Shown: positions 29,375 through 60,166 of the stretch, piece by piece
How the letters are laid out: each line of letters opens with the position of its first letter
Numbering within the stretch: the stretch's first letter is position 1
DNA from: Microvenator marinus
GTDB lineage: Bacteria > Myxococcota_A > Bradymonadia > Bradymonadales > Bradymonadaceae
Length of the DNA stretch: 64,000 nucleotides
Assembly (NCBI RefSeq): GCF_007993755.1
Contig: NZ_CP042467.1
Coordinates: 2,194,001-2,258,000, forward strand
Direction of reading: 5' to 3'
Translations under genes and position numbers: made by a program
Notes under the pieces: generated by a model
The model's database searches: none
What the model was told of the DNA's origin: nothing
Seen by the model: only the letters and a program-made list of their open reading frames with translations

Positions 29375-32300
29375 TCACTCATCCCATGGCGTCATTAACT
29401 CGTCTCCATCAGGGGGCGAGAAGCCTTCACCGCAATAACATGGCGAAGCAGGTGGGTTGAGCGGGTCCTCTGGACCATCAGGACAAACACAGACGTTGAG
29501 GAACTGGCATTCTTGCGGACCACATTGTTCTTCACCGACCGGACACGTTGCAGAACCAGCTGGAGGAGGGGTCTCGTTCAGCTCTTCGAATTTCGTATCA
29601 TTTTTGATGTCTACCAGGCCGTCACAATCATCGTCGAGCCCGTTGCAACGCTCCACGGCTCCCGGGAAGATCTCAGGATCGTTGTCGTTGCAGTCGGTGC
29701 CCTCTGGACACGTGGCTCCATCCTTTCCTAGATAACCATCGCCATCGGCATCCCTACAACGATTGCATGCGTCATCGTTCGGACCCGAACACGATACAAC
29801 GCCTCCGACCCCACACTGATAGAGCCCTAGACCACAACCGTTAACAGTCGTGAGCCCATCGGCATAACACGCCGTATTTTCTGGGCTTGTTGCGCTCAAG
29901 CGCACATGGAAGGTCCGTTGTCTTGAGATTTGGAGGAAGTCCTCACCAGGTTGATGCACGCCGAACCTCAGACGATCGTCGGAATTGCTATTGTCGGTGT
30001 GATTTCTCCAGCGATAGGTCATTTCCACTTCACTTAGACTGACCTTAGCTCCGCTCCAACGTGTCATCATCGCGATGGAATCTGCCTCTCGGTAATCATC
30101 GTCGCTGATCTCGTAATCATCGAGATCAAACTCGAGGTCCATCCTTGAGTTTCTGAATCGATCAGGAACGTCGTCACCACGGTCACCGGGCTTCCTATCA
30201 TCCCAGAAAGCAGGGAATGCTTCAGCAATGGTATTTGAACCGGGGAAGCCGAGCCTCATCCTCGCTTCATAATCGTCTCGATTCGTTTCTTGATCACGGC
30301 CCATCGCGTTGATGAAGCTAAGGCCGCCAGTCTTGAGGTCGCGGTACATGGCCATAACCGACCGGTCGACCGCTTGAATATTGGTACCGTCAGTGCTCTG
30401 AATGTCCGTGCTTCCGACACGATCCCGTGAGCCGCGTTGCGTAAAGTTCATCGCATCTTGGACCCGTTGATCTTGGTCAATGGTGGTCATCAGCTGCCAG
30501 GAAGTGGAGTCGGTTCTCCACTCCACCATTGGGAACCGAAGTCTGTCCGGCTCGTCTACCGATCCATTGCAGTTGTTATCGATGCCATCACAAACTTCGA
30601 ATGCCCAAGGCTGAACTGTCTGGGTGCAGCGGCGCTCACCATTTGCGCAATAACTTGTTCCACTGCGGCAGATACCCTCTTTTCCGGTCTGACAGCCCTT
30701 TCCGGCATCACGAGAGTAGTAGTTTGCCCCGGCTTCGGAGATTGCCAATCTCAAGGTCTCACGAGGATCAAGTTCGATCACGCTGCCGTCGGCGTTGATC
30801 CACTCCCATTTCCGCACGTCTCCACTGAACTCTGCGTCGATTTCGATGCTCCAGCCCGAGCTATGATGTGAGCCGAACCTTCCAATCGCGATACTTCCGG
30901 TGTCTTGAGCGCCGCTCGTCACCATGGCGTGAACCACGTATTCGTCGTCAAACTCGCCGTCTTGGACGATGGAGTAAGACTCGTACTCATCGTCCTCAAA
31001 GACCCTGTCCGGCGTTCCCTGAGCGTTGAAAATACGCACACGATAGCTGGCCATCGCCGGCTCCTGCGAGACATCCTTGGAGCCCTGACTCAACCACAGG
31101 ACGTATCGGCCTTCGGGGTTGCTCGTGGTGGCCATCGTCCTGTCGAGGAAGAGTGTTGCCCTAGCCGTGTGAGCCTCAGGTACATCTGGATTTTCGGAAA
31201 CGCCGCTCGAGTAATTTACAAAATTCTGGAAAGTCTGGCCGCCGGCACCGACAAAAGGTTGAGGCCAGAACCAGTGCAAGGAGCTGCGGATACCAACGAT
31301 ATGACCATCTGCGACTCGGAAGATGAAGTTATCGTTGTAGTCGTCGTCGAGCGCTGCACAATGGCTGCTCGCGCACCGTCCGTCCACGCACACATTGGGC
31401 GCTTCGCAAGACGAGCAGTCGTCAAAGCAGATTCCCTGGTGGCAGACCTGAGTCCCGGGGCAGACCACGGAGTCACAGGAATTCGGCTCACACACGCCCT
31501 GATAGCATTGTTCGTCGGCCCCACATTGGGAGTCGTCCGTACATTCACCACGGCATTCTCCGTCTGAGCATGAGTATCCATCGGGGCATACAAAAGCGCC
31601 GCCGAGGCAAGGATCACCCACACAGACACCGTCCAAACAGGCCTCGCCAGCCGCACAATCGGAGTTCTGATTACAAACAGGCTGACAGACCCCGCCGTAA
31701 CAGCTCTCTCCTTTTGGACAGAGCACGTGGTCACACGCTTCTTCTCCACACCTTCCGTCAAAGCAATACTCTTGCGGCTCGCCGGCTTGCTCGGCCGAAG
31801 TCGCCAAGAGCTTCCAATCGCCGGCGTTATCACATGCATCAGTGTCGTCGGAGTCGGTGTCCAGAATTTCGACGAGTTGATACTCACCGAGCGTAGAAGG
31901 AACCACGCACTTTTCAACGACCCGACCGTGCGGCCAGGTCACTCGGAGGTGGTACGGAACGTTCTCACCATAGGGCAAGCCGAAGTGCATGATCGCGGGA
32001 TCTTGGCTACCGCGCCCACGTCCACCGCTGACCTCACGAAGCCCCAAGATATCTCCGTCGGCGTTGCGAATCACCACGGTCGCTCCGATACCATCACGCG
32101 TCGTTCCATCGTTCACATTGGCGCCGATCTCGCGGAGGTCCACCAAAGCTCGGATCATCAGGTATCGCTTGTCCGTGCGTGGGTTTTCCCAAAGTTCATT
32201 TTGGCGATAGGCGTGCACAAGAATGTCGAGTGAACCGTCCCGGTCGTAGTCGGCCATGGCCCCCGAGTAGGCGCGGACACGTGAATCAATTCCAAGGTTC

Positions 32301-35300
32301 TTTCGGACAAATCGCAGCTCGGTCGACGAGCTCTTATTGAGGTAGAGCTCAGAGCCCGCCTCTCCAATCCAGAAGAGGTCTTGACGGCCGTCATGGTCCA
32401 CGTCACCGCATAGCACATCGTTCATATTGGTCATGGCCACACCGGCCGAGGCTCCAGGTTCCCCTGTAGGCGAGAAACTCCCATTGCTGCGCTGAAGCCA
32501 GATCTGATTTGTGCCGTTATCAGTCCAGATGATGTCAAAACGACCATCATTGTTCACATCACAGATCGTGACTCCACCCTTGTTGGAATTGCTCGCGTCG
32601 GAGCCAATGAGCGAGGTCGCAGTGAACGTGCCGTTTCCGCGATTGAAGTAGACCTGATGGTGCGAAAGTGCCGTCCAAGGCCGTGGTTTTCTACAAACCA
32701 GATCCACATTCCCGTCGAGATTCAAATCGGCAGCCGCACAGAAGTCGCCGTTGCGGTCGAAGAAAGCTCCGTCAGTGATTCCGACATCGACCCTATTGAA
32801 CGACCCATCACGTTGGTTCTGATACGTAATGACCCCGTATTCTTCATCTTCAGCAAAGAGGTCGAGCCAACCGTCACCGTCGTAGTCGATCCATGCCATG
32901 CCCTCGCTGTTCATTTGGCTGCGTCCCGAGAATGCACCGCCCGCGGGAATGGTAAAGGCCTGGTCAGAGACCAATCTATAATTGGGAGCACCCGTGTTTC
33001 GATACAACGAGATAATATTGGAGGTATTTCTTGCGAGGTCTGGGTTTCCGTCATTATTCCAATCGCCCCAGATGACCGAGCGTTCACGCGTGTACTTCTG
33101 GAAATGTGACTCACCCGATGAGTCAATCGGTGCCACGGTATCCGTAACGTCGGTAAAGCCAGGGCTTGTACAATTGGCGAGGTAAAGTCTAGAGCCCGCG
33201 GCGGGATCGGCTGTGTTCAACGCCAAGTCGAGGCAACCGTCAGCGTTGACGTCCGCCCATGCAACCCCGGCGAACTTCTGCCAAGGCGTGGCTAGCCCAA
33301 CGCTATCGGCGACGTTTCGGAATCCGGCCGAGCCTACAAATCCAGGGCAATCGCCATTCGTTGCACAAGCCACATGGCAGGTACCGGCACCACACACGGT
33401 ACCAATCGGACAATAGACGCCTTCGCACGGATCGTCGGGGAGACAAACTTCGTTGTTGTAACAGATATGTTCCGGATCGTCGCAGGTGCCGTCGGAATCA
33501 CAAACGGGGGCACAAACACCACCGAAACAGGTCTCGCCGAGCTCACAGAAGACGTTATTGCAAGGCTCGCCGGCGCACCGATCTGGCCCGACTGGGGCGA
33601 TCACGCTCACGTGACATACCTGATAGCTCACACAGTCCTCGCTATCGGTACATGCGGTATGACACCCGTTTTGGTAGCAAACCATGCCACTAGGACACGT
33701 CACGGAACAATCGTTTTCGGCACATATCCCAGAGTAGCAGGCGAAGGGATCCACACACGGATCGGTGTCCGAACAATTGTCCAAACACTGGCCCTGATGG
33801 CATTGAGTTCCAAGTGGACACACGATGCCATCGCAAAGATCCTCGACTTCCAAACAGACCGATGCGTCCATACAGTATGAGTACGGAGGCGTACAATCGC
33901 CTGAATCTGAACACGAAGGAAAACAAGCACCTAAGTAACAGGACTCTCCTTGCGGGCAGTTGACCCCATCACAAGGTGACGGGCCTGGTCGGCACACGCC
34001 CTCGGCGCAAACATCCGTGACGCTACAATCATCATTGGACGTACATTGCCTAAAGCAACTTCCCTCTTCACACGAGAACCCTGCAGGGCAGATTACAAGC
34101 CCGCCGCAGATATTCTCAGGTGCGCAGAATTCCTGGTTGAAGCAGACGGTTCCTGACGGACAATCGGCGTTGTCGTCACACGCTGGCTGGCAGCTAACAC
34201 CTTCGGTACCCGCAGACTCAACGCAAACCTCATCGATTGAACACTGCACAAGGTCACAAGGACTCGAAGTCGGATCATCGGGGGCTGGGCCGCAACCAAA
34301 TGCATACTCGACAAGTGGCGCGGTGCAGACGCTGGTCGTGTCAAAACAACCACCTTCGGTACAGCTCATCCCTGAAGGGCAAACGATGGCATCGCAGGGA
34401 TCTTCAGGGCCGCATGCCGAACTACCCACTGCCGCACCTGCGTAACAAGCTTCGCCCGATCCACAATCGGCATCGGACGCGCAAAGGTCCGAGGAACAAT
34501 CACCCAAGACACATACTTCGCCGGACGCGCACGAGACACCATCACAGGGATCGGCGGGATCCGCACAAACACCCGCATTACAAATTTCGCCGGCGCCACA
34601 ATCGGTGTCTTCGGAGCATTGGAGCACACAATCTACGCCGATGAGCACTTCACCTGGCAAACACGAGATATCCGCAGACACGGTGGATGGATCAGCGGTC
34701 TCACAGAAGCTCGAGTCGTAACATACCTCTCCAGCCGGGCAGTCAGCGTCAACCGAACACGAGGGTTGGCAGGTCAAACCGATACAGACTTCGTTGGCAG
34801 CACATGCCGGACAATTCACCACGAAGATTGGGGGTGACACGGCACGTGTTGTTACAACCTGGACAGGTGGAATCGGCGCCTGAGAAACATTGGCACGCAC
34901 CTCAAATTCACCAGTGCCAAGACTGGAAGTATCCCATGAGAAGTAGTAGTAACGACCGCCTGGCGAGGTCTCAAGTTGTGGGAATTCAAAGAAAGTTGTC
35001 CAAGTGCCAGCGCCTACTTTTCGGTATTGCATTACTACGTCGGCCTTATCGCTCTCAGCATCCCTCAAAAATACGGGGATCGAAGTGATACCTGTAACCG
35101 GCCTTCCTGCGCCGCCATCGTCAAAGTTCAGAGGAAGATTTGGACGATAGACCACTGCTGTAGTCAGTTGGTTTTGCCCAGGGGCCGAATCTACATAGAA
35201 GTTGTTCCACATGATATGGAGCTCGCCGCTCACAGGTGCCAGAACCAGGTCTAGGTCGCCGTCATCATCCATATCGGCCGTCGCACTCGAAGCCCAGGAA

Positions 35301-38300
35301 CCTGAGTCGTCGATTTGTGCGGCGCTGAATCCAAAATCAGGGGAGTTCGGTCCGTTGTTCAAGTAGACTTGGACCGAGTTGTGCGTAGCGCCAACCACCA
35401 CCAGGTCCGGCCAGCCGTCACCGTTGAGGTCCGCAGCCTCCACATCCGTGACAAGTTCTGCTGTGAAGATTTCGGATGGGGTTTGCCAGTCGATTGCAGG
35501 AAATGGTGTCGCAGCAAATGGATCTTGGAGCATGACCGCTGTCGGCTGTCCATCATGCCCAAAGACCACGTCGAGTCGCCCATCGTTATTGAAATCAGCC
35601 AGCGCCACGGCGGTCTGGGTCCAATTGTTCAGATGCGGGAAGTTGTTGTTTTCATACACTATGCCCTCACCATCGTTCCTCAACCATCGAGCCGTTTGAG
35701 CGGCGTCATGCACTCCGCCGATCACGAGATCGGGAATACCGTCTTGGTCGAGGTCGCCAGCAGCGATCACGTTGGTGCGTGCTGAGGAGGCCCCCGTCCA
35801 AGTGGGCAAGAAGCCTTCCGGTGCCATCACGTCGGACTGAAGCAGGTAGTTATATCCCGCTGCATTGCCAACCATGACATCGGCACGACCCGCGGCGGTC
35901 AGCGCCGCCACCACGCCTGAGCTACGCGATAATGCCGGCAGCGCGCTGGTGCGGTCGTTAGAGAGCTCTACCCATGGCCCAAATCCTCCACCGTCAATTC
36001 CATAAGCAATTTGGCTCTTGGCCGAGTCGGTAGACGAGAAGAAGACCGAATCCAGCTTTCCGTCGCTGTTCAAGTCACCAATCGCAAATGACTCATAATC
36101 CGCCGCTGGGTCGTATTCCTCATCTCCATCAGTAAACTCAGGTCCTCGGCGTGAACCAAAATATGTTGACCCGAACGCGAGGTATGCAATGTCCGGATTC
36201 CTGTCGGAGTTGACGTCCGCGACGCGAACTTTTGCGAAGTCGCGGGTTGGTCCACCTATCGATGTGGGCGCCGAGAGCGGAGTCGTCGAACCTGGGTATA
36301 TTGAAAGAATCGTGTTCGCAGCAGTCCTCGCGACTACATCTCTGACCCCGTCTCCCGTCACGTCCACCAAAAAGACCTCGTCAATATCGGTCGATAGATC
36401 CGTATAGAAGAGGGTTGCCCGCGCCCCTCCATATTGCAGCATCGCCATACCGGAGTTGCGAGTGCCGCTGTGGTAAGTACCGGGGAGAAGGATCACCAGT
36501 TCGTCCCTTCTATCTCCTCGAATATCTCCAACGGCTCCGCCGACCGCTCCCCACCCTTGATGGTCAATCAGGCCTAGATACTGCAATTGTGTGGTGTGCA
36601 GGATGGGGTCGTACGCATAGATCAGCGTTCGATCGAACGTGATGATTGCAATCTCTTGTGTATCGGTGTCCGGATCAATGAGGTTGCCAATCTCCAATTC
36701 GAAGGCACTTACATTGATCAAGTCGTTGACCACGGGAATAAAGGTCCAGTTGTTGGGGTCAAATCGATAGACTCTTAGGGTGCCGTTGGCATAAGTTACG
36801 ATTTCGTAATCATCGATCCCATCTATATCTGCGGCTCGCATGAATCCAGAACCATGCGTGACCGTTCCAAGATATCGTTCTTGGAACTCGCAATTCCCAA
36901 GACCTTGAAACACCCGAAGGAAGCCGTTTTGCTCCAAGAGGGCCACGTCCACGTGACCATCCTTATCAAAGTCCACCATCTGAATCTCTTGAGCTTCTTT
37001 TCCCTGATAAAGTGTTTTGCTGAGAGTGACTGCATTGAGACTATGCCCCTCAGTTGAACGCGCAACCATGAGGCTAACGCCCGGGGAGTGCCTTACGCTA
37101 AAGGCGAGATCTGAGATTCCATCGGAGTCACAATCACCAACTCCTTGTGCGTACATCACGCCGTCGACAACACCTGAATTGTCAAAAATGTCGTCTTCAG
37201 TGAAATCCGGTAGAAGAGGATCCACAGTTTCAACTGTGTGAACTTCATTTAATGCCCCCATGCGAAAATTCGCAAAGAAGTCCACCTTACTGTCATTGTT
37301 CAGTTTGGCGGGCGTCATTCCCGTATAGAAGTCAACTTCGGCAAATGTATTGACATTCGACTCGCAACGCCCGTCCGCAGCGCAAACGCCTCCCAACCCA
37401 CAATCATCGTTCACCAGACAAGGCTCATGACACGCGTTTGCCGTGGGATCACACGTGGTACCTGCGGGACAATCTAAATCGTCGGCACAACCGCCGACGA
37501 GGCACTCTCCAAAAACGCAGGCATCATCATTCGGACACTCATCAGATGTCGTACATTGAGTCAGACACTGCCCAGTTCCCTGGTAGCAATAGCTGTTTGG
37601 GAGATACGAACAATCTAAGTTGACCGAACAGAGCTCCCGGCACTGTCCGGCATCGCAATAGGCCGGAGCCGGGCAGTCGGGGTCTGTGAAACATGGCAGA
37701 GCACATTGTCCGTAAACACATGAATCACCAGCCTGGCAACTACCTGCAGTGCAAGGGTACTCACACTGGCCCGTCGCGAGATAGCAGTAGGTCAGACCAG
37801 CCTCAATGCATGGCAGATTGTTGGTGCAAAACTCCAAACACGCGCCTGACCCACTGTTGAGCGTTGTTTCACAATAAGAAGAACCCGCGGGGCAGACAGA
37901 GGGATCAGCGGTGCAAGGAGGCACACAAACTCCCGCGAGGCAGGTATCATCGGCCTCAGGACAGTTCGAGTTCTGAACACAAGGTTTTTGCACGATCATT
38001 CCGATCGTCCCAGGTTGATTTTGCAGAAACACGACGTCGGGCAGACGATCCCCGTTGATGTCTATCTTGCGGAAGTTCCTTAAGGCGTCTCCTCCCGTAC
38101 TCAAGACCTGAACTTGTGTACCAGTCGTCTCTTTAACTTCGAGGACTGAGTTATCGGTCTGTAGGATAAGATCTGGCGAGCTTATTCGATCAAATAGCCC
38201 AACCAGACCAGCACCATCGTTTAAGAGTGGGGTGGTAATGTTGCTGATAGTTAAAGACGACGTGCCAGAGGGTTGTGCATAAGGAACACCCGTATTGTTG

Positions 38301-39109
38301 CTCCCAAAGAAGTAGTAGGTACTGTTCACAAATGAGAAAGGCCCTGCGGTTGCCACGCCCACCGGAGTCACTGGAAGTGGATCGGTCGGGAAATCCAACC
38401 GCAGCGGAGGAAATGGAGCTGCTATCAATGAGATAAACCGTCCTCCATCTACACCTGAGCCCACGAAAACGGTTTGCGGGTTGTGAAGCCGGATATGTCC
38501 AGTAGAATTAAAGCTCGCGATTGCCGGTTGAGGAATCTGGGCCCAGACGGCCCCGGTAAACCGGAACATTCCGAACAGGCCCCCAGTTGAAAATGCGATA
38601 AGATCGTTGTAGGCGTCGCCGTTGCTCGCTTTCATGTCTAAAAGAGCACAATCCACCAACGAGGGGACCCCAATGTCCGCCTCGACCGTCGTTGTCCAAG
38701 AATTTGTCGACTTGCTGAATATCCTCAGCTTAATTGGGGCGCCTCCCATTGTCGCATCAGAGTAAGCCACCAACGCTCTAGTCCCGCTGACCGACAAACA
38801 GTGAATCCTCGGCGGAACCCCGAATGAAGCGGGGGGTATAGAGCTGTCAAAACTGAATACACCCGCATCATTCTTGTAGAAATCAACAGCTTGAGTGCTC
38901 CCAGAAGTTCTTACCAATACGATGTCCCCGTCATCATCATTGTCAAAGTCGCCCACTTCGAAAAAATGAACGTTGCTTAAAAACAATCCTGGAACCGGGC
39001 TGACCGCATTGAAATCCAACTCGTTGCGCGCTTCGAGGTTTTGACTTGTTGAAAAGACAAGAAACAATAGCGATGCGCAGAGAATGCGCCTTATCCAATA
39101 TAAATTCAT
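29375..39109 (-). CDS. Giant secreted FG-GAP/VCBS, Cys-rich, UnbV and MopE repeat protein (3,244 residues)
   Basis: This gene fills 9.7 kb. The protein has a signal peptide (about 1-28), a beta-propeller-like FG-GAP region (about 30-370), a Cys-rich array (about 370-585) of EGF/dickkopf-like units with CxxGxC spacing, a long FG-GAP/VCBS block (about 600-1420) with many DLNGDGxPDLV calcium loops, a second Cys-rich array (about 1433-1920), a further FG-GAP block, a UnbV/ASPIC domain (about 2315-2405, containing IGATVVIRNADG), a third Cys array (about 2450-2590), a beta region, and two MopE-type motifs (about 2806-2853 and 3110-3166; VCDGIDNNCNG, RCNGLDDDCDG). No sorting tail is visible. It is probably a calcium-stabilised surface or released protein that binds metals or partners. 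GGGGAC precedes the ATG. Confidence 0.9.
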   Translation of the reverse strand: MNLYWIRRILCASLLFLVFSTSQNLEARNELDFNAVSPVPGLFLSNVHFFEVGDFDNDDDGDIVLVRTSGSTQAVDFYKNDAGVFSFDSSIPPASFGVPPRIHCLSVSGTRALVAYSDATMGGAPIKLRIFSKSTNSWTTTVEADIGVPSLVDCALLDMKASNGDAYNDLIAFSTGGLFGMFRFTGAVWAQIPQPAIASFNSTGHIRLHNPQTVFVGSGVDGGRFISLIAAPFPPLRLDFPTDPLPVTPVGVATAGPFSFVNSTYYFFGSNNTGVPYAQPSGTSSLTISNITTPLLNDGAGLVGLFDRISSPDLILQTDNSVLEVKETTGTQVQVLSTGGDALRNFRKIDINGDRLPDVVFLQNQPGTIGMIVQKPCVQNSNCPEADDTCLAGVCVPPCTADPSVCPAGSSYCETTLNSGSGACLEFCTNNLPCIEAGLTYCYLATGQCEYPCTAGSCQAGDSCVYGQCALPCFTDPDCPAPAYCDAGQCRELCSVNLDCSYLPNSYCYQGTGQCLTQCTTSDECPNDDACVFGECLVGGCADDLDCPAGTTCDPTANACHEPCLVNDDCGLGGVCAADGRCESNVNTFAEVDFYTGMTPAKLNNDSKVDFFANFRMGALNEVHTVETVDPLLPDFTEDDIFDNSGVVDGVMYAQGVGDCDSDGISDLAFSVRHSPGVSLMVARSTEGHSLNAVTLSKTLYQGKEAQEIQMVDFDKDGHVDVALLEQNGFLRVFQGLGNCEFQERYLGTVTHGSGFMRAADIDGIDDYEIVTYANGTLRVYRFDPNNWTFIPVVNDLINVSAFELEIGNLIDPDTDTQEIAIITFDRTLIYAYDPILHTTQLQYLGLIDHQGWGAVGGAVGDIRGDRRDELVILLPGTYHSGTRNSGMAMLQYGGARATLFYTDLSTDIDEVFLVDVTGDGVRDVVARTAANTILSIYPGSTTPLSAPTSIGGPTRDFAKVRVADVNSDRNPDIAYLAFGSTYFGSRRGPEFTDGDEEYDPAADYESFAIGDLNSDGKLDSVFFSSTDSAKSQIAYGIDGGGFGPWVELSNDRTSALPALSRSSGVVAALTAAGRADVMVGNAAGYNYLLQSDVMAPEGFLPTWTGASSARTNVIAAGDLDQDGIPDLVIGGVHDAAQTARWLRNDGEGIVYENNNFPHLNNWTQTAVALADFNNDGRLDVVFGHDGQPTAVMLQDPFAATPFPAIDWQTPSEIFTAELVTDVEAADLNGDGWPDLVVVGATHNSVQVYLNNGPNSPDFGFSAAQIDDSGSWASSATADMDDDGDLDLVLAPVSGELHIMWNNFYVDSAPGQNQLTTAVVYRPNLPLNFDDGGAGRPVTGITSIPVFLRDAESDKADVVMQYRKVGAGTWTTFFEFPQLETSPGGRYYYFSWDTSSLGTGEFEVRANVSQAPIPPVQVVTTRAVSPPIFVVNCPACAANEVCIGLTCQPSCSVDADCPAGEVCYDSSFCETADPSTVSADISCLPGEVLIGVDCVLQCSEDTDCGAGEICNAGVCADPADPCDGVSCASGEVCVLGDCSSDLCASDADCGSGEACYAGAAVGSSACGPEDPCDAIVCPSGMSCTEGGCFDTTSVCTAPLVEYAFGCGPAPDDPTSSPCDLVQCSIDEVCVESAGTEGVSCQPACDDNADCPSGTVCFNQEFCAPENICGGLVICPAGFSCEEGSCFRQCTSNDDCSVTDVCAEGVCRPGPSPCDGVNCPQGESCYLGACFPSCSDSGDCTPPYSYCMDASVCLEVEDLCDGIVCPLGTQCHQGQCLDNCSDTDPCVDPFACYSGICAENDCSVTCPSGMVCYQNGCHTACTDSEDCVSYQVCHVSVIAPVGPDRCAGEPCNNVFCELGETCFGGVCAPVCDSDGTCDDPEHICYNNEVCLPDDPCEGVYCPIGTVCGAGTCHVACATNGDCPGFVGSAGFRNVADSVGLATPWQKFAGVAWADVNADGCLDLALNTADPAAGSRLYLANCTSPGFTDVTDTVAPIDSSGESHFQKYTRERSVIWGDWNNDGNPDLARNTSNIISLYRNTGAPNYRLVSDQAFTIPAGGAFSGRSQMNSEGMAWIDYDGDGWLDLFAEDEEYGVITYQNQRDGSFNRVDVGITDGAFFDRNGDFCAAADLNLDGNVDLVCRKPRPWTALSHHQVYFNRGNGTFTATSLIGSDASNSNKGGVTICDVNNDGRFDIIWTDNGTNQIWLQRSNGSFSPTGEPGASAGVAMTNMNDVLCGDVDHDGRQDLFWIGEAGSELYLNKSSSTELRFVRKNLGIDSRVRAYSGAMADYDRDGSLDILVHAYRQNELWENPRTDKRYLMIRALVDLREIGANVNDGTTRDGIGATVVIRNADGDILGLREVSGGRGRGSQDPAIMHFGLPYGENVPYHLRVTWPHGRVVEKCVVPSTLGEYQLVEILDTDSDDTDACDNAGDWKLLATSAEQAGEPQEYCFDGRCGEEACDHVLCPKGESCYGGVCQPVCNQNSDCAAGEACLDGVCVGDPCLGGAFVCPDGYSCSDGECRGECTDDSQCGADEQCYQGVCEPNSCDSVVCPGTQVCHQGICFDDCSSCEAPNVCVDGRCASSHCAALDDDYNDNFIFRVADGHIVGIRSSLHWFWPQPFVGAGGQTFQNFVNYSSGVSENPDVPEAHTARATLFLDRTMATTSNPEGRYVLWLSQGSKDVSQEPAMASYRVRIFNAQGTPDRVFEDDEYESYSIVQDGEFDDEYVVHAMVTSGAQDTGSIAIGRFGSHHSSGWSIEIDAEFSGDVRKWEWINADGSVIELDPRETLRLAISEAGANYYSRDAGKGCQTGKEGICRSGTSYCANGERRCTQTVQPWAFEVCDGIDNNCNGSVDEPDRLRFPMVEWRTDSTSWQLMTTIDQDQRVQDAMNFTQRGSRDRVGSTDIQSTDGTNIQAVDRSVMAMYRDLKTGGLSFINAMGRDQETNRDDYEARMRLGFPGSNTIAEAFPAFWDDRKPGDRGDDVPDRFRNSRMDLEFDLDDYEISDDDYREADSIAMMTRWSGAKVSLSEVEMTYRWRNHTDNSNSDDRLRFGVHQPGEDFLQISRQRTFHVRLSATSPENTACYADGLTTVNGCGLGLYQCGVGGVVSCSGPNDDACNRCRDADGDGYLGKDGATCPEGTDCNDNDPEIFPGAVERCNGLDDDCDGLVDIKNDTKFEELNETPPPAGSATCPVGEEQCGPQECQFLNVCVCPDGPEDPLNPPASPCYCGEGFSPPDGDELMTPWDE

Positions 39110-49732: not shown

Positions 49733-50719
49733 ATGCGTATGCAAACCACGACTGGAAAACTCACTCGATGGCTAGGTTGGGGCGTTGCTCATAGCCTTGG
49801 AATCGCAACCATTGCGGTACTTTTTAGCTTCTTCGCCTTTGACCTGACCCGGTTCCAACTGGCCTGGAAGTCGCTTGGAAATGGATTCCAAATTGATTGG
49901 GCGTCACTTGCGCTCCACGTTGGCCTTAGCGCCTGTGCGTGGTTCCTTCTGATCATTGCTATCATGTGGGGCGTTGAGCGGCGGCGCGAATCGAAACGCA
50001 AAGTTGTCAAACTGACGCGTGGCTCGATCATGATCGAGTTCTTGATCATCTTAACCCCATTTCTATTGCTCACGAGCGGCTTGGCCCAGCTGACGATGCT
50101 CAATATCACCGGTATGCTCGCAGACCTTGCAGCATTTGAGGCGGCTCGTGTGGCGTGGGTATGGGCCCCAGAATTGGACGCAGACCGGAACGTGACGCCC
50201 TACTTGGTCAAAGACCGCGCACGCGCTACAGCCTCCATGGTCTTGGCCCCAACGGCACCCAATGATTATTATGTGGGTCGAACAACGCCTCCGGGTAGTT
50301 CCAACTACTACCGGCGCCAACGCGCGATTTTGACCGGGGCATTCCAAGCTGATGGGACCCAAGGCCCCTCGGTGTACGAATGGAGTGGAGGTCAAACAGC
50401 CTTGACTGGAGGAGGCGCTTTCGACCTCGACGTTGAAGAGGCAAGCTCCGAGAACCTCTACTTCCACCGCTCCTTTGACGAATCGTCGTTTGCGCACCGC
50501 GCAGCAAGGAAAATGACTTTTGCTGAATGGGGACTCTGGGATGATTTCGAAGTGATTCAGGGCGACCGGACAGGGGTTCGATTTACGTATCGATACAATC
50601 TGATTTTCCCATGGTTCGGCTATATCTGGGGCCAGAAGAACGAGGTCGGTATGCGCGAGGGATATTATTCTCCCATCCCTCGTGAGCACACGTTCGCAAG
50701 CCAGAGGAGTATGGAATGA
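49733..50719 (+). CDS. TadE-like protein with two extra N-terminal membrane helices
   Basis: A 328-residue protein. It has two membrane helices (about 18-40 and 62-84), a basic linker, and a third helix with pilin-like entry RGSIMIEF (Gly97, Glu102) that matches the TadE motif (G....E then hydrophobic), followed by a soluble domain of about 190 residues ending in hydrophobic-polar alternation. Canonical TadE starts near its motif, so the two preceding helices are unusual. No strong ribosome site precedes the ATG; 49739 is an alternative. The next gene overlaps its stop by ATGA (50716-50719). Confidence 0.7.
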   Translation: MRMQTTTGKLTRWLGWGVAHSLGIATIAVLFSFFAFDLTRFQLAWKSLGNGFQIDWASLALHVGLSACAWFLLIIAIMWGVERRRESKRKVVKLTRGSIMIEFLIILTPFLLLTSGLAQLTMLNITGMLADLAAFEAARVAWVWAPELDADRNVTPYLVKDRARATASMVLAPTAPNDYYVGRTTPPGSSNYYRRQRAILTGAFQADGTQGPSVYEWSGGQTALTGGGAFDLDVEEASSENLYFHRSFDESSFAHRAARKMTFAEWGLWDDFEVIQGDRTGVRFTYRYNLIFPWFGYIWGQKNEVGMREGYYSPIPREHTFASQRSME

Positions 50720-52068
50720 AAGAGCTCATCTCCCGCACGCTTGAGCGTTTCCATAAGTCGCAATCTGGTGCCGTGGCGCTTCTTTGCCTCGCTTCCTTGC
50801 TCATTCTCTTTATGTGCGCGCTCATCATGTACGACGCGAGCCTCGTGATTCGAGGTAAAACAGACGCCCATATGGCGGCTGACACAGCGGCCTATTCGCA
50901 GGCCTCCGTCGAGGCCCGTTCCATGAACATGATCGCCTTTGCTAACGTGGGTAAACGCACCATCGTCGGCATCCACAACATGTACTATTTCCAGTACCCG
51001 ATGTACCTGATTTGGTGGCTCGGTCAGTGCTCCAAATGTTGCTGTGGTTGGTATTGTGGGTGTTGGACCGAGTGCTTCAACTGTTTCGGAAACCTCATAG
51101 ACGGCTCTCCCATTATGGAGGCCATCGACTGGGCTAGTTTCCTCGGCAATGACGACCTCGAGCAAAATCTAGAAGATCTCGATACCTTCCAAGACGACTT
51201 GAGAGAGTATGCGGCGTACTGGGGTGTGGGCGAGGCCATGGTGCGTGGCGTCAGAAATGGCGCGAACATGATCACGAACTTCCCTGCCCCCGACAATAGC
51301 GAGTATGGCCCGCTACCGTTGGAGCGAGGCAACCCGTCAGAATCATGCCTGACCCCGACACCACTGGCGGATAACCCTGTCACGCTCGTGACCTTGATCG
51401 AGTGGTATGCAAACTTCCAAGATTTGAAGGACCGAAGTACCAGCAGCCCGAACATCGCGAGCGAAGGCCCTGCCGAGCGCGTTAATATAGCGTACTCGTT
51501 CCTCGCTTGCCCGCTAATGACGCCGGATGAGGGGGCTCCGTTCTTTAACGCGGCGGACTCCAATAGCAGCGAGCACATGCTTCAGCGCTCCAACTACGTC
51601 TGGTCGTACAAGCACACGCCAGATAACGACGGGATATTGCGCAATAACTACATGTTCATGTCCAAGGAATACACGCCACCTTCAAACGTCACGATGCCCA
51701 AAACGGGCATTTGGTCTATCGCTCGAAGCGAGTTCTACTTCCCGCCGAGCAACAAGCCGGACACCATCCTCTTTGACGGTGCGCACGATATGTGGATGTT
51801 CCACCCCGGTTGGTACGGAAAGATCAGGCCGACCACGCTGCCACGCGAAGAACCTCCGGTGGATCACGACGAGATGTTCGACGAATCGCTTGAGCTCGGA
51901 CGAGACATGGCTCAGGGCCAGTTCTTCATCTTCGCAGTCGATAACTTCGATTTCATGGGCTTCCAAAACGATATTCGATACATGCAGCGAAACGTCACCC
52001 CTGCAATGAAGGGCATGGTCGACAACGGTGGTGAGGATCGCCACATCACAGACGGGATGTCACGATGA
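50716..52068 (+). CDS. TadG-like pseudopilin protein with Cys-rich insert
   Basis: A 450-residue protein with N-terminal KSQSGAVALLCLASLLILF (Gly18), a TadG-type entry of pilin-like proteins that lacks the +5 Glu, then a predicted single helix and a large extracytoplasmic domain. An exceptional Cys run occupies residues 105-123 (QCSKCCCGWYCGCWTECFNC region, 8 Cys in 19 residues), likely disulfide-bonded or metal-binding. The rest is soluble with aromatic-rich loops. Its start and end overlap the neighbouring genes by ATGA, indicating stoichiometric coupling. Confidence 0.68.
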   Translation: MKELISRTLERFHKSQSGAVALLCLASLLILFMCALIMYDASLVIRGKTDAHMAADTAAYSQASVEARSMNMIAFANVGKRTIVGIHNMYYFQYPMYLIWWLGQCSKCCCGWYCGCWTECFNCFGNLIDGSPIMEAIDWASFLGNDDLEQNLEDLDTFQDDLREYAAYWGVGEAMVRGVRNGANMITNFPAPDNSEYGPLPLERGNPSESCLTPTPLADNPVTLVTLIEWYANFQDLKDRSTSSPNIASEGPAERVNIAYSFLACPLMTPDEGAPFFNAADSNSSEHMLQRSNYVWSYKHTPDNDGILRNNYMFMSKEYTPPSNVTMPKTGIWSIARSEFYFPPSNKPDTILFDGAHDMWMFHPGWYGKIRPTTLPREEPPVDHDEMFDESLELGRDMAQGQFFIFAVDNFDFMGFQNDIRYMQRNVTPAMKGMVDNGGEDRHITDGMSR

Positions 52069-52823
52069 TTCAAAAGATTAGATATTGGATTCGAAACGAA
52101 GATGGCGTGGCCATGACCGAGTTTGTGATCACGCTCCCAGTCTTCATCTTGATCTTCACCGGGATCGTGAACCTGCACAAACTCGAGTGGAACAATAACC
52201 GCGTGAAATACCTGGCAGCCACCGAGATGTGGGACAATGCCATGGCGATTCACGACACCAACCTGATCGGCATGCTGCCGTTTGAGCATTCGTTCCCGAT
52301 GTATTCCGCTGCAATGGAACTCAGCGAAATTGGCTCTCATCAAAGTCCACAAGGTGACATTCAAGCTATGCAAATCGCATTTGGACTCTTCGATGGCTCC
52401 AAAGGCGAAGCCGAAGCAGCAGGCGGATTTGCTGATGGCGGTTCTACCGCTTACGAATACGGCTCCGATTTCTCAGAAGACATGACCAAAGACACCGGGA
52501 TTAACCCACTCAGCTTCTCGGGCAAGACGGCAATGATGGCGTTCAATGTGGCCGTACCGTTCACGTACATGGGCACCAGACACGCCTCGGCACTCGGTAC
52601 CCGATACGGAATCGTAACCGGTGAAAACTCAAGAACCGTGAGCATTCCGGGACACACAGGCAATTTCAACTACGGATACGATGTCCTCGTATCCCCAACC
52701 TCAGTACCTGGCGGATTCCTCAACGAACTCATCGTCGTGGGTCACTCAAGGCTGGCCGCTGAGGATTCACCCTGTCTCAGCTCGGTGCTGAAGATCAGCA
52801 ATGACGGAGATTACGATTGTTAG
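52065..52823 (+). CDS. TadE/pseudopilin-like protein
   Basis: A 252-residue protein with a TadE-type N-terminus: NEDGVAMTEFVITLPVFILIF (Gly14, Glu19), followed by a helix and a soluble C-terminal domain of about 210 residues. The G/E pair matches prepilin processing and assembly signals. The start overlaps the previous stop (ATGA). The next gene begins 7 bases before its stop. It should be a minor pilin-like component or a periplasmic assembly factor. Confidence 0.72.
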   Translation: MIQKIRYWIRNEDGVAMTEFVITLPVFILIFTGIVNLHKLEWNNNRVKYLAATEMWDNAMAIHDTNLIGMLPFEHSFPMYSAAMELSEIGSHQSPQGDIQAMQIAFGLFDGSKGEAEAAGGFADGGSTAYEYGSDFSEDMTKDTGINPLSFSGKTAMMAFNVAVPFTYMGTRHASALGTRYGIVTGENSRTVSIPGHTGNFNYGYDVLVSPTSVPGGFLNELIVVGHSRLAAEDSPCLSSVLKISNDGDYDC

Positions 52824-56506: not shown

Positions 56507-57688
56507 ATGCGAGATTTGCGCTGGGTAATAGTTTTAATCGCTATCTATTCTTCCGAGGTCATGGCCGCTACACCCGTGGTGGAGACGCCGAGCTACGGAT
56601 GGGTGCTCTTCCGCATGGTGCTCATGCTCGGAGCGGTCTGCATACTCGCCTGGGTGAGCCTAAAATGGGGGCTTAAACGTTGGGTGACACCAGACGCCAA
56701 AGCGGGACCTATGCAGGTGCTCGCGCGATTGCCGTTAGAGCCAAGGCGAACCATCAACCTTATCAAAGTAGGTCAACGCGTGCTGGTGGTGGGAAGCAGC
56801 GAGCACGGCATGCACGCGCTCGGCGATTTGAGTCTCGATGAGGTTGAACTCGAAGAATTGGACGCGAAATCAGAAGACGCAGAAGAGGCCGAGCCTAAGG
56901 ATGAGGACTCTGAGTCAAGTCCGTTCAAGAATATTCTCGACCAGGTCAAGCGTGCAGGGCTCATCCTTCTGACTGCGCTTCCGGTGACTTTGATCTCCGA
57001 TACGGCGTTCGCTCAGGTTCCCGGGACATCACAGAGCCCGCTGACGCTCGTAGCGCTCCTGGCCATCCTGGCTCTTCTTCCCTTCCTCTTGGTCATGGTC
57101 ACGAGCTTTGTGAAGATCGCGGTGGTCTTGAGTATTTTGAGGACGGCTATCGGCGTCCAACAGGCTCCGCCCAACCAGGTCATCACAGGTTTGGCCATGA
57201 TTCTGAGCCTCTACGTGATGGCGCCGGTGGCCATTGAGGCGTGGGAGGCGAGCAAGCCGTCCATAGACCAGATGGAAGCGGGTGAATTTGATGCGTCAGT
57301 GGCGAATTACCAGTCGCTGGGCGAGGAAGCCGCAGCGCCGCTGAAGACCTTCTTGCTCAAACACACCGATGACGAAGAGCGCGTGCAACTCTACGAAATC
57401 TCGCTGCAATTGCGTACCGAAGAGCAGCGAAAATCCATCACTCCAGAAGACCTTCTGATAGTGATACCGGCCTTCGTCATGACCGAGCTCAAAGAAGCCT
57501 TCATGATAGGTTTTGTGCTCTTTATCCCGTTCATTCTGGTGGACCTTGTGGTGGCCAATATCCTGCTTAGTCTCGGCATGCACATGCTCAGTCCCACCAC
57601 GGTCAGCCTCCCATTCAAACTCTTGCTCTTCGTGCTCGTGGACGGATGGACACTGGTGATTCGGGGACTTTTGCTGGGGTATGTCTGA
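56507..57688 (+). CDS. sctR: FliO-like domain fused to type III export-gate protein SctR/FliP
   Basis: A 393-residue fusion. Residues 1-21 look like a signal peptide; 30-55 are a membrane helix, and about 70-107 form a FliO-like small domain with LPLEPRRTINLIKVGQRVLV and VGSSEHGMHAL. An acidic linker (about 108-140) leads to a second signal-peptide-like segment LILLTALPVTL..DTAFAQ, ending AFA-Q at residues 167-170, and then a complete FliP/SctR domain of about 245 residues with SILRTAIGVQQAPPNQV and LSPTTVSLPFKLLLFVLVDGW. FliP of E. coli is made with a similar cleavable signal (AFAQLPG). Signal peptidase could therefore split the product into FliO and SctR (inference). No in-frame start is present at the junction. 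The stop overlaps sctS as TGATG. Confidence 0.9.
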   Translation: MRDLRWVIVLIAIYSSEVMAATPVVETPSYGWVLFRMVLMLGAVCILAWVSLKWGLKRWVTPDAKAGPMQVLARLPLEPRRTINLIKVGQRVLVVGSSEHGMHALGDLSLDEVELEELDAKSEDAEEAEPKDEDSESSPFKNILDQVKRAGLILLTALPVTLISDTAFAQVPGTSQSPLTLVALLAILALLPFLLVMVTSFVKIAVVLSILRTAIGVQQAPPNQVITGLAMILSLYVMAPVAIEAWEASKPSIDQMEAGEFDASVANYQSLGEEAAAPLKTFLLKHTDDEERVQLYEISLQLRTEEQRKSITPEDLLIVIPAFVMTELKEAFMIGFVLFIPFILVDLVVANILLSLGMHMLSPTTVSLPFKLLLFVLVDGWTLVIRGLLLGYV

Positions 57689-57951
57689 TGCAAGATCTAC
57701 TGCTTCAATTGGCACGTGAGGGCATTTATCTCTCGCTGATCGTCTCGGCGCCACCGGTGCTCGCGAGTATGGGGATCGGTCTCGTAATCAGCGTGATTCA
57801 GGCCACGACGCAGATTCAGGAACAGACACTGACGTTTGTTCCTAAACTCGTTGGGGTTTTTGCGAGTCTCGTGATTACGGGCCCGTGGATCGGCTCGCAG
57901 CTCGTTCGCTTTACGCGGGTGCTCTTCGAGACCATTGCGGTGATGGGGTAG
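57688..57951 (+). CDS. sctS: Type III export-gate protein SctS/FliQ
   Basis: An 87-residue protein with two membrane helices, QIQEQTLTFVPKL between them and the family-typical TGPWIGSQLVRF end. Length matches FliQ/SctS (about 88-89). In the export gate, four SctS subunits wrap the helical SctR5-SctT1 core. It starts at an ATG overlapping the sctR stop (TGATG), so it is coupled. SPs and ATPase genes are not next to it. Confidence 0.95.
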   Translation: MQDLLLQLAREGIYLSLIVSAPPVLASMGIGLVISVIQATTQIQEQTLTFVPKLVGVFASLVITGPWIGSQLVRFTRVLFETIAVMG

Positions 57952-57955
57952 ACTG

Positions 57956-58759
57956 GTGCAAGGGCTGATCAACACAGGCTACGTTTTTCAGGAGGGATTT
58001 CTGCTCGTCATGATCATCTCGGCGAGAATTGTGCCTGTAGTCCAGCTCGTGCCGTATCTGGGTGGCAAAGCCACGCCACAAGTCGTCAAGATGGGCATCT
58101 CGCTTTGCCTGGCCCTGCTCTTGATGCCGCTCGTCTGGCAAACAAAAGACGCACTTCCGAACTCCCCACCGGCGCTCGCCGTCATCATCGCCAAAGAGGT
58201 CTTGGTAGGCATGACCATCGGGTTTGTGGGCGCGCTGGTCTTTGAGGCGTTGCGTATCGCAGGCCAGATCATGGACACCACGCGCGGCCAAAATATGGCC
58301 ACCGCTATGGTCCCCCAACTCCCAGAGCGCGTGAGCCTCTCCGCGGATGTCTTGCTTCAGCTTGGGATCGCAATCTTCCTGATCATCGGCGGCCACCGCG
58401 TCCTGATTTCGGCGCTCTTGATAAGCTACAAAGCTGTCCCTGTGCACGTGTTGCCGGATGCGGCCACCACCACCCAGGCGGCCGCACTGATCGCGGAGCT
58501 CTTTGGGGCGTCGTTCACCGTTGCGCTCCTGATGGCATTCCCCGTGGTCGCGTCGGTATTGCTGGCTGAACTGGTTCTCGCGCTCATCAACAAGTCAGCA
58601 CCCAACGTCAACGTCTTCTTTCTCGGCATGCCGCTAAAAGCCATGATCGGCCTCTTCGCCCTCATGGTTTCGCTAGAATCCATCATCAACCTGATGATTT
58701 CCGAGTCCTTGTTTGAACTCCGCGCACTCAGCGCCCTTCTGGAGAGTCTCGCGCCATGA
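57956..58759 (+). CDS. sctT: Type III export-gate protein SctT/FliR
   Basis: A 267-residue membrane protein with about six or seven helices, starting at GTG (57956) 4 bases after the sctS stop. It carries the family pattern SARIVPVVQLVPYLGG (about 22-37) and MGISLCLALLLMPLVW, plus a central gating region GQIMDTTRGQNMATAM. In the export gate it completes the SctR5SctT1 channel. The end overlaps sctU by ATGA (58756-58759). Confidence 0.94.
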   Translation: MQGLINTGYVFQEGFLLVMIISARIVPVVQLVPYLGGKATPQVVKMGISLCLALLLMPLVWQTKDALPNSPPALAVIIAKEVLVGMTIGFVGALVFEALRIAGQIMDTTRGQNMATAMVPQLPERVSLSADVLLQLGIAIFLIIGGHRVLISALLISYKAVPVHVLPDAATTTQAAALIAELFGASFTVALLMAFPVVASVLLAELVLALINKSAPNVNVFFLGMPLKAMIGLFALMVSLESIINLMISESLFELRALSALLESLAP

Positions 58760-59817
58760 GTGACGATAAGACAGAAGAGCCAAGTGCACAGAAACTTCGT
58801 AAAGCCCGTGAAGAAGGCAATGTCCCCAAATCCCAAGAATTCACGGGTATGCTCGTCATGGTCACGGCGCTGGTTGCCACTCTTGCGTGGTGGCCGTCTG
58901 CGGCCGGGCGAATTCTAGGGTTCTTTAGGGAAGCCTCAGAATTTGCAGCGCGCACGCCGGACCACAATGACCTGCTCAACTTTCTAAAAGACTCCGTAGA
59001 AGTCATGGCCTTTGCCATCACGCCCATTTTGGCGGCGAGCTTCGCGATCGCCCTCTTTGTGAACTACGTGCAAGTTGGCCCTGTATTCGCCAAGAAGCCG
59101 CTGATTCCAGATATGACCAGGCTCAATCCGGCGGGCGGTCTCAAGAATATGTTCACCAAGCAGAAGCTGATCGAACTTGGTAAGAACCTGCTCAAACTAG
59201 CCATGATGGGTTGGGTTGGGACTTGGCTCTATACAAAGTATGTTGGCCAACTCGCGCTTTCACCACGACTTGAGCTCATCCAGGCCATCGCTACGTTCTA
59301 TGAGATCGCCTACCAACATGCGAAGTACTTGGTGGGCGGGCTTGTGATCTTTGCGATCATCGATCTCCTCCTGGTTCGTCGTAAGTATCGGCAAGATATG
59401 ATGATGTCCAAGCAAGAGGTCAAAGACGAGTACAAGCAGAGCGAAGGCGATCAGAACGTCAAAGGTCAGCGCAAACGCTTACACCAAGAGATGCTGCGTG
59501 AAGCCGGCACTAGTCGCGTCAAGAAGGCAGATGCGGTGGTGGTCAACCCCACGCATATCGCGGTGGCGATTCTCTATGACGAAGACACCATGCGCGCCCC
59601 CGAGGTGATCGCGAGTGGGCGCGGGGGAAAAGCGGATGAGATACGCCGCCTTGCCAAACGGCATGGCGTACCGATCGTTCGCAACGTCAACCTTGCGCGC
59701 GCATTGATCAACGTGGACGTGGAGGACGAGATCCCGGGCGATCTCTATGAGGCCGTGGCCGAAGTTCTTATGTTTGTTTACGATTTGAGGAAGAAAGATG
59801 CCGCTGAAAAAAGATGA
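58756..59817 (+). CDS. sctU: Type III export switch protein SctU/FlhB
   Basis: A 353-residue protein with four membrane helices in the first 215 residues and a cytoplasmic domain. The autocleavage motif NPTH is intact (Asn264-Pro265-Thr266-His267), followed by IAVAILYDEDTMRAP. The start TEEPSAQKLRKAREEGNVPKSQEF is the conserved family N-terminus. SctU/FlhB closes around the SctS ring and switches substrate class after self-cleavage. It is followed with a 20-bp overlap by a TPR gene. Confidence 0.96.
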   Translation: MSDDKTEEPSAQKLRKAREEGNVPKSQEFTGMLVMVTALVATLAWWPSAAGRILGFFREASEFAARTPDHNDLLNFLKDSVEVMAFAITPILAASFAIALFVNYVQVGPVFAKKPLIPDMTRLNPAGGLKNMFTKQKLIELGKNLLKLAMMGWVGTWLYTKYVGQLALSPRLELIQAIATFYEIAYQHAKYLVGGLVIFAIIDLLLVRRKYRQDMMMSKQEVKDEYKQSEGDQNVKGQRKRLHQEMLREAGTSRVKKADAVVVNPTHIAVAILYDEDTMRAPEVIASGRGGKADEIRRLAKRHGVPIVRNVNLARALINVDVEDEIPGDLYEAVAEVLMFVYDLRKKDAAEKR

Positions 59818-60166
59818 ACTCTACAGTGTGTCCATGCTTGGCCGAGAACTTTTGGAGCTCGGGCGCCTAGACGAGGCAAGGGCGATTTTTGAAGGCCTCA
59901 GCGCCACCAACCCTTCGGAACCTTTTGCGTGGATGGGCCTTGGGTGTGTGGCGCGGGCAAAGGGCCAGCTTGACGCGAGCGTTGATCTTTTTGCGCATAG
60001 CGTGAAGCTTGGCGCGGGTTCGCAGGCCCAGCTCTACCTGGCGGAGGTCCTCCTGAGTCTTCGGAAGATTCCGGAAGCCAAGGCACAGATCCAAGCTCTG
60101 CTCAACGATGCGGACCCCGATATCCGGGGCCGCGCGACGATCCTGCAGCGAAGATTAAACGGATAA
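59798..60166 (+). CDS. Small TPR protein, possible type III chaperone
   Basis: A 122-residue soluble protein with about three tetratricopeptide units (LGRELLELGRLDEARAIF, AWMGLGCVARAKGQLDASVDLF, AQLYLAEVLLSLRKIPEAKAQI). Class II T3S chaperones (SycD/LcrH) and SctG/YscG are small TPR proteins of similar size. Its start overlaps sctU by 20 bp, which supports a role with the export gate; substrate translocators are not encoded nearby. A general TPR adaptor remains possible. Confidence 0.75.
   Translation: MPLKKDELYSVSMLGRELLELGRLDEARAIFEGLSATNPSEPFAWMGLGCVARAKGQLDASVDLFAHSVKLGAGSQAQLYLAEVLLSLRKIPEAKAQIQALLNDADPDIRGRATILQRRLNG

Follow-up and report, generated by a model that had tools for sequence, protein, structure and literature searches.

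A FliO-SctR gene fusion with an internal signal peptide in a non-flagellar type III secretion system of Microvenator marinus

Introduction

The FliP/SctR subunit of the type III export gate is hard to assemble, and the role that FliO plays there is still debated. In Salmonella the signal peptide of FliP (Met1-Gln22) is cut off; FliO binds to FliP but is not retained in the finished basal body (PMC5542437, PMC5542435). FliO is bitopic, with a cytoplasmic C-terminus (PMC2947984). What, then, does a single gene that encodes both proteins produce, which secretion system does it serve, and how did it arise? Such a gene is found in Microvenator marinus, a marine predator within the Bradymonadia (Myxococcota); a needleless T3SS* with a role in prey lysis has been proposed for the Bradymonadia (PMC11509652). 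As in M. marinus, FliO and FliP are joined in one gene in Buchnera sp. APS, a fliO-fliP fusion cited in PMC2947984; that case belongs to the flagellar system of a reduced endosymbiont, however, and the likeness considered here is the joining of the genes.

We analysed the M. marinus gene within a 64,000-nucleotide stretch of the genome (NZ_CP042467.1, positions 2,194,001 to 2,258,000), here called the window. An earlier note on this DNA described a natural FliO-SctR fusion that keeps the signal peptide of SctR, and suggested either an evolutionary intermediate or a chain from which signal peptidase releases two 1:1 products.

Results

The fusion gene is a single ATG-initiated, stop-free frame of 393 codons, with AAGGAG just upstream (Table 1). 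Translation together with Pfam and NCBIfam searches confirmed the order that had been read from the sequence, namely FliO, an acidic linker (15 D/E and two K/R over residues 110-140) and SctR preceded by a signal peptide ending AFA^Q (residues 167-170). The Pfam FliO model (PF04347) matches residues 54-148 with 43.6 bits (cut-off 22), and this half has the one transmembrane helix and the small cytoplasmic beta domain, here of four strands, that belong to the FliO family. The Pfam FliP model (PF00813) matches residues 184-388 with 225.6 bits (cut-off 26.9) over positions 1-191 of its 191, which places a full-length domain in the SctR/FliP export-gate family. Within that family, the C-terminal half belongs to the non-flagellar SctR branch, scoring 233 with the SctR model TIGR01102 (cut-off 208.6), 198 with the flagellar FliP model TIGR01103 (under its cut-off of 217), and falling in a tree clade supported at 100/100. 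The suggestion that SctR, S, T and U all look injectisome-like held for SctR, by model and tree; S, T and U score about equally with flagellar and non-flagellar models.

Table 1. Features of the fusion gene and of the genes that follow it (window positions).
Feature	Position	Strand	Residues and evidence
fliO-sctR fusion gene	56507..57688	+	393 aa; translation, Pfam, NCBIfam
N-terminal signal peptide, FliO half	56507..56566	+	residues 1-20, VMA^A; hydrophobic segment 4-25, predicted helix 2-20
FliO transmembrane helix	56594..56683	+	residues 30-59; hydrophobicity and structure model
FliO cytoplasmic beta domain	56711..56833	+	strands 69-109; PF04347, predicted strands with pLDDT about 85-88
Acidic, poorly structured linker	56834..56920	+	residues 110-138; pLDDT <50 at 126-136
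Internal signal peptide of SctR	56921..57013	+	residues 139-169, AFA^Q; predicted helix 139-166, break 168-172
Mature SctR	57014..57685	+	residues 170-393, expected 24.5 kDa if cut; PF00813, TIGR01102
sctS (FliQ family)	57646..57951	+	PF01313; likely start ATG 57691
sctT (FliR family)	57956..58759	+	PF01311
sctU (FlhB family)	58756..59817	+	PF01312
TPR protein, SctY/SycD-chaperone-like	59798..60166	+	TIGR02552 and NF052415, both below cut-off

A rule-based scan called two signal-peptide-like segments in the fusion. The internal one has a positive n-region, a hydrophobic core and small residues at -3 and -1 (FKNILDQVKRAG-LILLTALPVTLISDTAFA^Q), and its hydrophobic stretch (147-169) ends AFA^QVPG. 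In an AlphaFold model of the fusion (47 sequences, mean pLDDT 75.6, pTM 0.51), the FliO beta domain is followed by a linker of poor order, a helix and, at the predicted cut site, a break with pLDDT <50; little weight can be put on such a break when a single chain is modelled. A PDB search returned known FliP/SpaP gates only.

Before asking what becomes of the chain, we considered whether the joint is real and whether it is translated as one. The two genes are separate in all other genomes of the family, as the earlier note had thought close relatives might show, and in the sister species the pair is one stop codon away from fusion, so that an erroneous joining during sequencing or assembly deserves attention. 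We nevertheless regard it as very improbable: the genome is one contig of 5,847,748 bases, the coding score stays positive in frame 0 and above the other frames across codons 97-157, where the other frames have stops, the longest homopolymer over the joint is 3 bases, and the same architecture has evolved elsewhere. An ancestral ATGA overlap at 56901, tried as a hidden frameshift, was rejected since the frames are incompatible with a single indel. SctR could also be made separately by internal initiation, the fusion being a read-through by-product, and a TTG at codon 118 and a GTG at codon 160 are available for this. However, a start at TTG118 would place some 20 residues of the acidic linker, plus the n-region, ahead of the hydrophobic core, GTG160 lies inside the core of the internal signal peptide, and by eye neither has a well-placed ribosome-binding site. 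Between these two codons there is no in-frame ATG, GTG or TTG, and SctR is therefore left without a clean start codon, which also speaks against an error. Internal initiation is very unlikely, if slightly less so than a false joint.

We then compared 21 genomes of the family, 18 of which have SctR; the fusion occurs only in M. marinus. Of the 17 other genomes with SctR, 16 also have FliO, mostly directly upstream of sctR, with a 4-base overlap, abutting ends or a spacing of up to about 160 bases. In one genus (two loci) the two genes are encoded on different strands and hence are not co-transcribed. The view that FliO is absent from non-flagellar systems is accordingly outdated for the Myxococcota, in line with a 2025 study that associates FliO with their non-flagellar T3SS, including the predation-linked M. 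xanthus system (PMC12403147); the FliO of those systems is described as the product of a separate gene. The closest SctR, at 72% identity, is that of genome G043, in which the TAG of fliO is followed at the next base by the ATG of sctR in the same frame, so that loss of a single stop codon would give the fusion. In unfused relatives SctR begins with a signal peptide of this type (AxA^Q/E), although some, including G043, have none.

A FliP/SctR tree of 73 sequences (support values as the tool prints them) places the fused SctR as sister to G043 (99/91) within the family clade (100/100), and the non-flagellar Myxococcota together with injectisome-type sequences form one side of the tree (100/100). 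The phylogeny that the earlier note had called for thus puts the fusion among non-flagellar lineages and not in an ordinary flagellar operon. A FliO tree, which is weaker (110 columns, few resolved forks), agrees: the FliO half groups with the non-flagellar FliO of the family, away from the flagellar FliO of the same genome. Since both halves nest among Bradymonadia non-flagellar systems with separate genes, and one genome only is fused, the M. marinus fusion is a recent, derived event at a tip inside these systems.

The genes of the M. marinus system were located by family searches. Besides the operon, whose TPR protein has a relative near sctR in five of eight family loci compared, SctV lies at a second locus, SctJ, SctL, SctN and a FliJ-like SctO at a third and SctQ at another, giving at least four dispersed loci. 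The genome has three secretins, of which two are identified by models as PilQ and GspD and the third is taken as Tad RcpA for its short length (475 aa) and the FHA/secretion-ATPase-like ORF after it; all three score far below the SctC cut-off, and no SctC was found in the genome. With SctRSTUV, SctJ, SctN and SctQ present and no T3SS secretin found, the system lacks the secretin by which, together with the needle, a classical injectisome is defined. The fusion is thus part of a non-flagellar T3SS of the needleless T3SS* type, without a secretin and with its genes dispersed. This system resembles the T3SS* of Myxococcus xanthus (PMC12075869) and the 'Myxo' group, which branches early (PMC3459982), in having SctR-V, the ATPase and sorting-platform parts and no secretin, but it differs in its dispersed loci and in the fusion of SctR to FliO. 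The same genome also encodes a flagellar set, in which fliO and fliP are separate and overlap by 4 bases, providing an internal control.

Fusions were also found outside the family. An alignment-based scan of genome contigs gave 80 loci. FliO-FliP fusions occur in 11 genomes from five Myxococcota families and at three Nitrospirota loci (L099:4704-5759, L111:4932-5939 and L114:4968-6023). All have the order of M. marinus, that is FliO, linker, internal signal peptide and FliP, but differ in being flagellar genes on separate tree branches. The Myxococcota fusions are part of flagellar operons, among neighbours resembling MotA/B, FliL and FliM, with FliQ, FliR, FlhB and FlhA beside them by eye from the ORF list, and both of those that were scored pass the FliP cut-off. 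A contig titled Nitrospira (SBBF01000021.1) carries a Myxococcota-like non-flagellar fliO-sctR pair, owing to either assembly contamination or transfer.

The flagellar fusions form two further clades, one of Myxococcota (100/99) and one of Nitrospirota (100/99). A single clade of all fusions was rejected (AU p about 1e-54), as was a grouping of the M. marinus sequence with the flagellar fusions (AU p about 1e-5), and the flagellar fusions arose independently of that of M. marinus. A clade sharing the fusion, which the earlier note had sought as support, is hence missing in the non-flagellar case and present as an independent flagellar one. Parsimony counts three changes across the fusions; a single clade of the Myxococcota and Nitrospirota flagellar fusions was not rejected (AU p 0.40), so that their separate origin is argued from parsimony.

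A signal-peptide-like segment before FliP/SctR is kept in all 15 fusions (the two flagellar clades and M. marinus). Of the 11 Myxococcota flagellar fusions, ten have Ala at -1 (column entropy 0.44 bits, in a gappy alignment with one sequence shifted by one residue), the -2 column is free (2.48 bits), and most linker and signal-peptide columns lie at about 2-2.7 bits; the n-region has Arg in nine, and the linker columns vary freely. Conservation of -1 beside a free -2 looks like the mark of selection by the peptidase rather than of an anchor.

Discussion

We propose that the fliO-sctR pair of a Bradymonadia needleless T3SS was fused in the Microvenator lineage and is probably made as one chain that is cut in two, with FliO as a local chaperone. 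The chain would insert via Sec, with the FliO half N-out and its beta domain and the acidic linker in the cytoplasm. The retained signal peptide of SctR would cross the membrane again and present AFA^Q to the periplasm, the side on which FliP, after its known cleavage, has its mature N-terminus (PMC5542437), so that cutting would need no change of topology. FliO would then serve as a local assembly chaperone for the SctR ring. We infer here the cleavage, the chaperone role in the M. marinus system and the benefit of coupled 1:1 synthesis; as for selection on the fusion within the non-flagellar system, a single genome carries it.

Signal peptidase probably cuts the chain into FliO and SctR, judging from the sequence comparisons: co-synthesis followed by cleavage is supported by the flagellar fusions, which keep the internal signal peptide and conserve the -1 alanine in an otherwise free-running linker. 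The chain could instead stay whole, the internal segment acting as a signal anchor that tethers a FliO to each SctR and sets about five FliO domains around the gate. The flexible linker of the model would permit such tethering and, as some unfused SctR proteins, that of the sister species among them, lack a signal peptide, this segment is not essential to SctR; a tethered N-terminus is perhaps tolerated, and the M. marinus segment could hence be an uncut anchor. The pattern at -1 and -2 in the flagellar fusions argues against this, and we hold the uncut chain to be a doubtful alternative, though a far more credible one than a flagellum-injectisome intermediate preserved in the lineage. For the latter it can be said that the non-flagellar systems of Myxococcota form an early branch in which FliO and the signal peptide are retained (our tree; PMC3459982; PMC12403147). 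The intermediate nevertheless fails against the tip position of the fusion within the Bradymonadia and its rejected grouping with the flagellar fusions; in our trees no fusion is seen at the base of the non-flagellar clade, and we give this reading almost no weight.

Beyond M. marinus, we lean towards seeing FliO-FliP/SctR fusions with an internal signal peptide as a convergent route to a 1:1 membrane polyprotein that would be split by signal peptidase during insertion, with at least two and probably three or more origins. A membrane polyprotein thought to be split in this way at an internal signal peptide is the cytochrome b-c1 precursor FbcH of Bradyrhizobium, whose proteins are unrelated to FliO and SctR. 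If the convergent reading is true, a chaperone would be placed beside each new gate subunit and would gain a second membrane anchor. The natural fusions suggest that the pairing of FliO with SctR/FliP extends to a non-flagellar T3SS of the predation type. They also provide a culturable system for approaching the stoichiometry and timing of FliO through a single cut site, and the cut site conserved in independent flagellar fusions makes a prediction that can be tested directly. In the literature searched (subscription journals, preprints and supplements lay outside it), we found no description of a FliO-SctR fusion, nor of flagellar fusions from Myxococcota or Nitrospirota in which an internal signal peptide is conserved. 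The main text of PMC12403147, as covered by its sections 7 and 8 and a text search for 'fusion' and 'fused', does not mention natural fusions.

Two further observations concern the surroundings of the operon. On the minus strand, at 29375-39109 of the window, lies an open frame of 3244 aa that seems to carry a signal peptide. TadE/TadG-like genes lie at 49733-52823, 3.7 kb upstream of the T3SS operon. In M. xanthus, the Tad (Kil) pilus is paired with the T3SS*. As a conserved partner, the upstream Tad-like genes were rejected, being not adjacent to sctR in the relatives.
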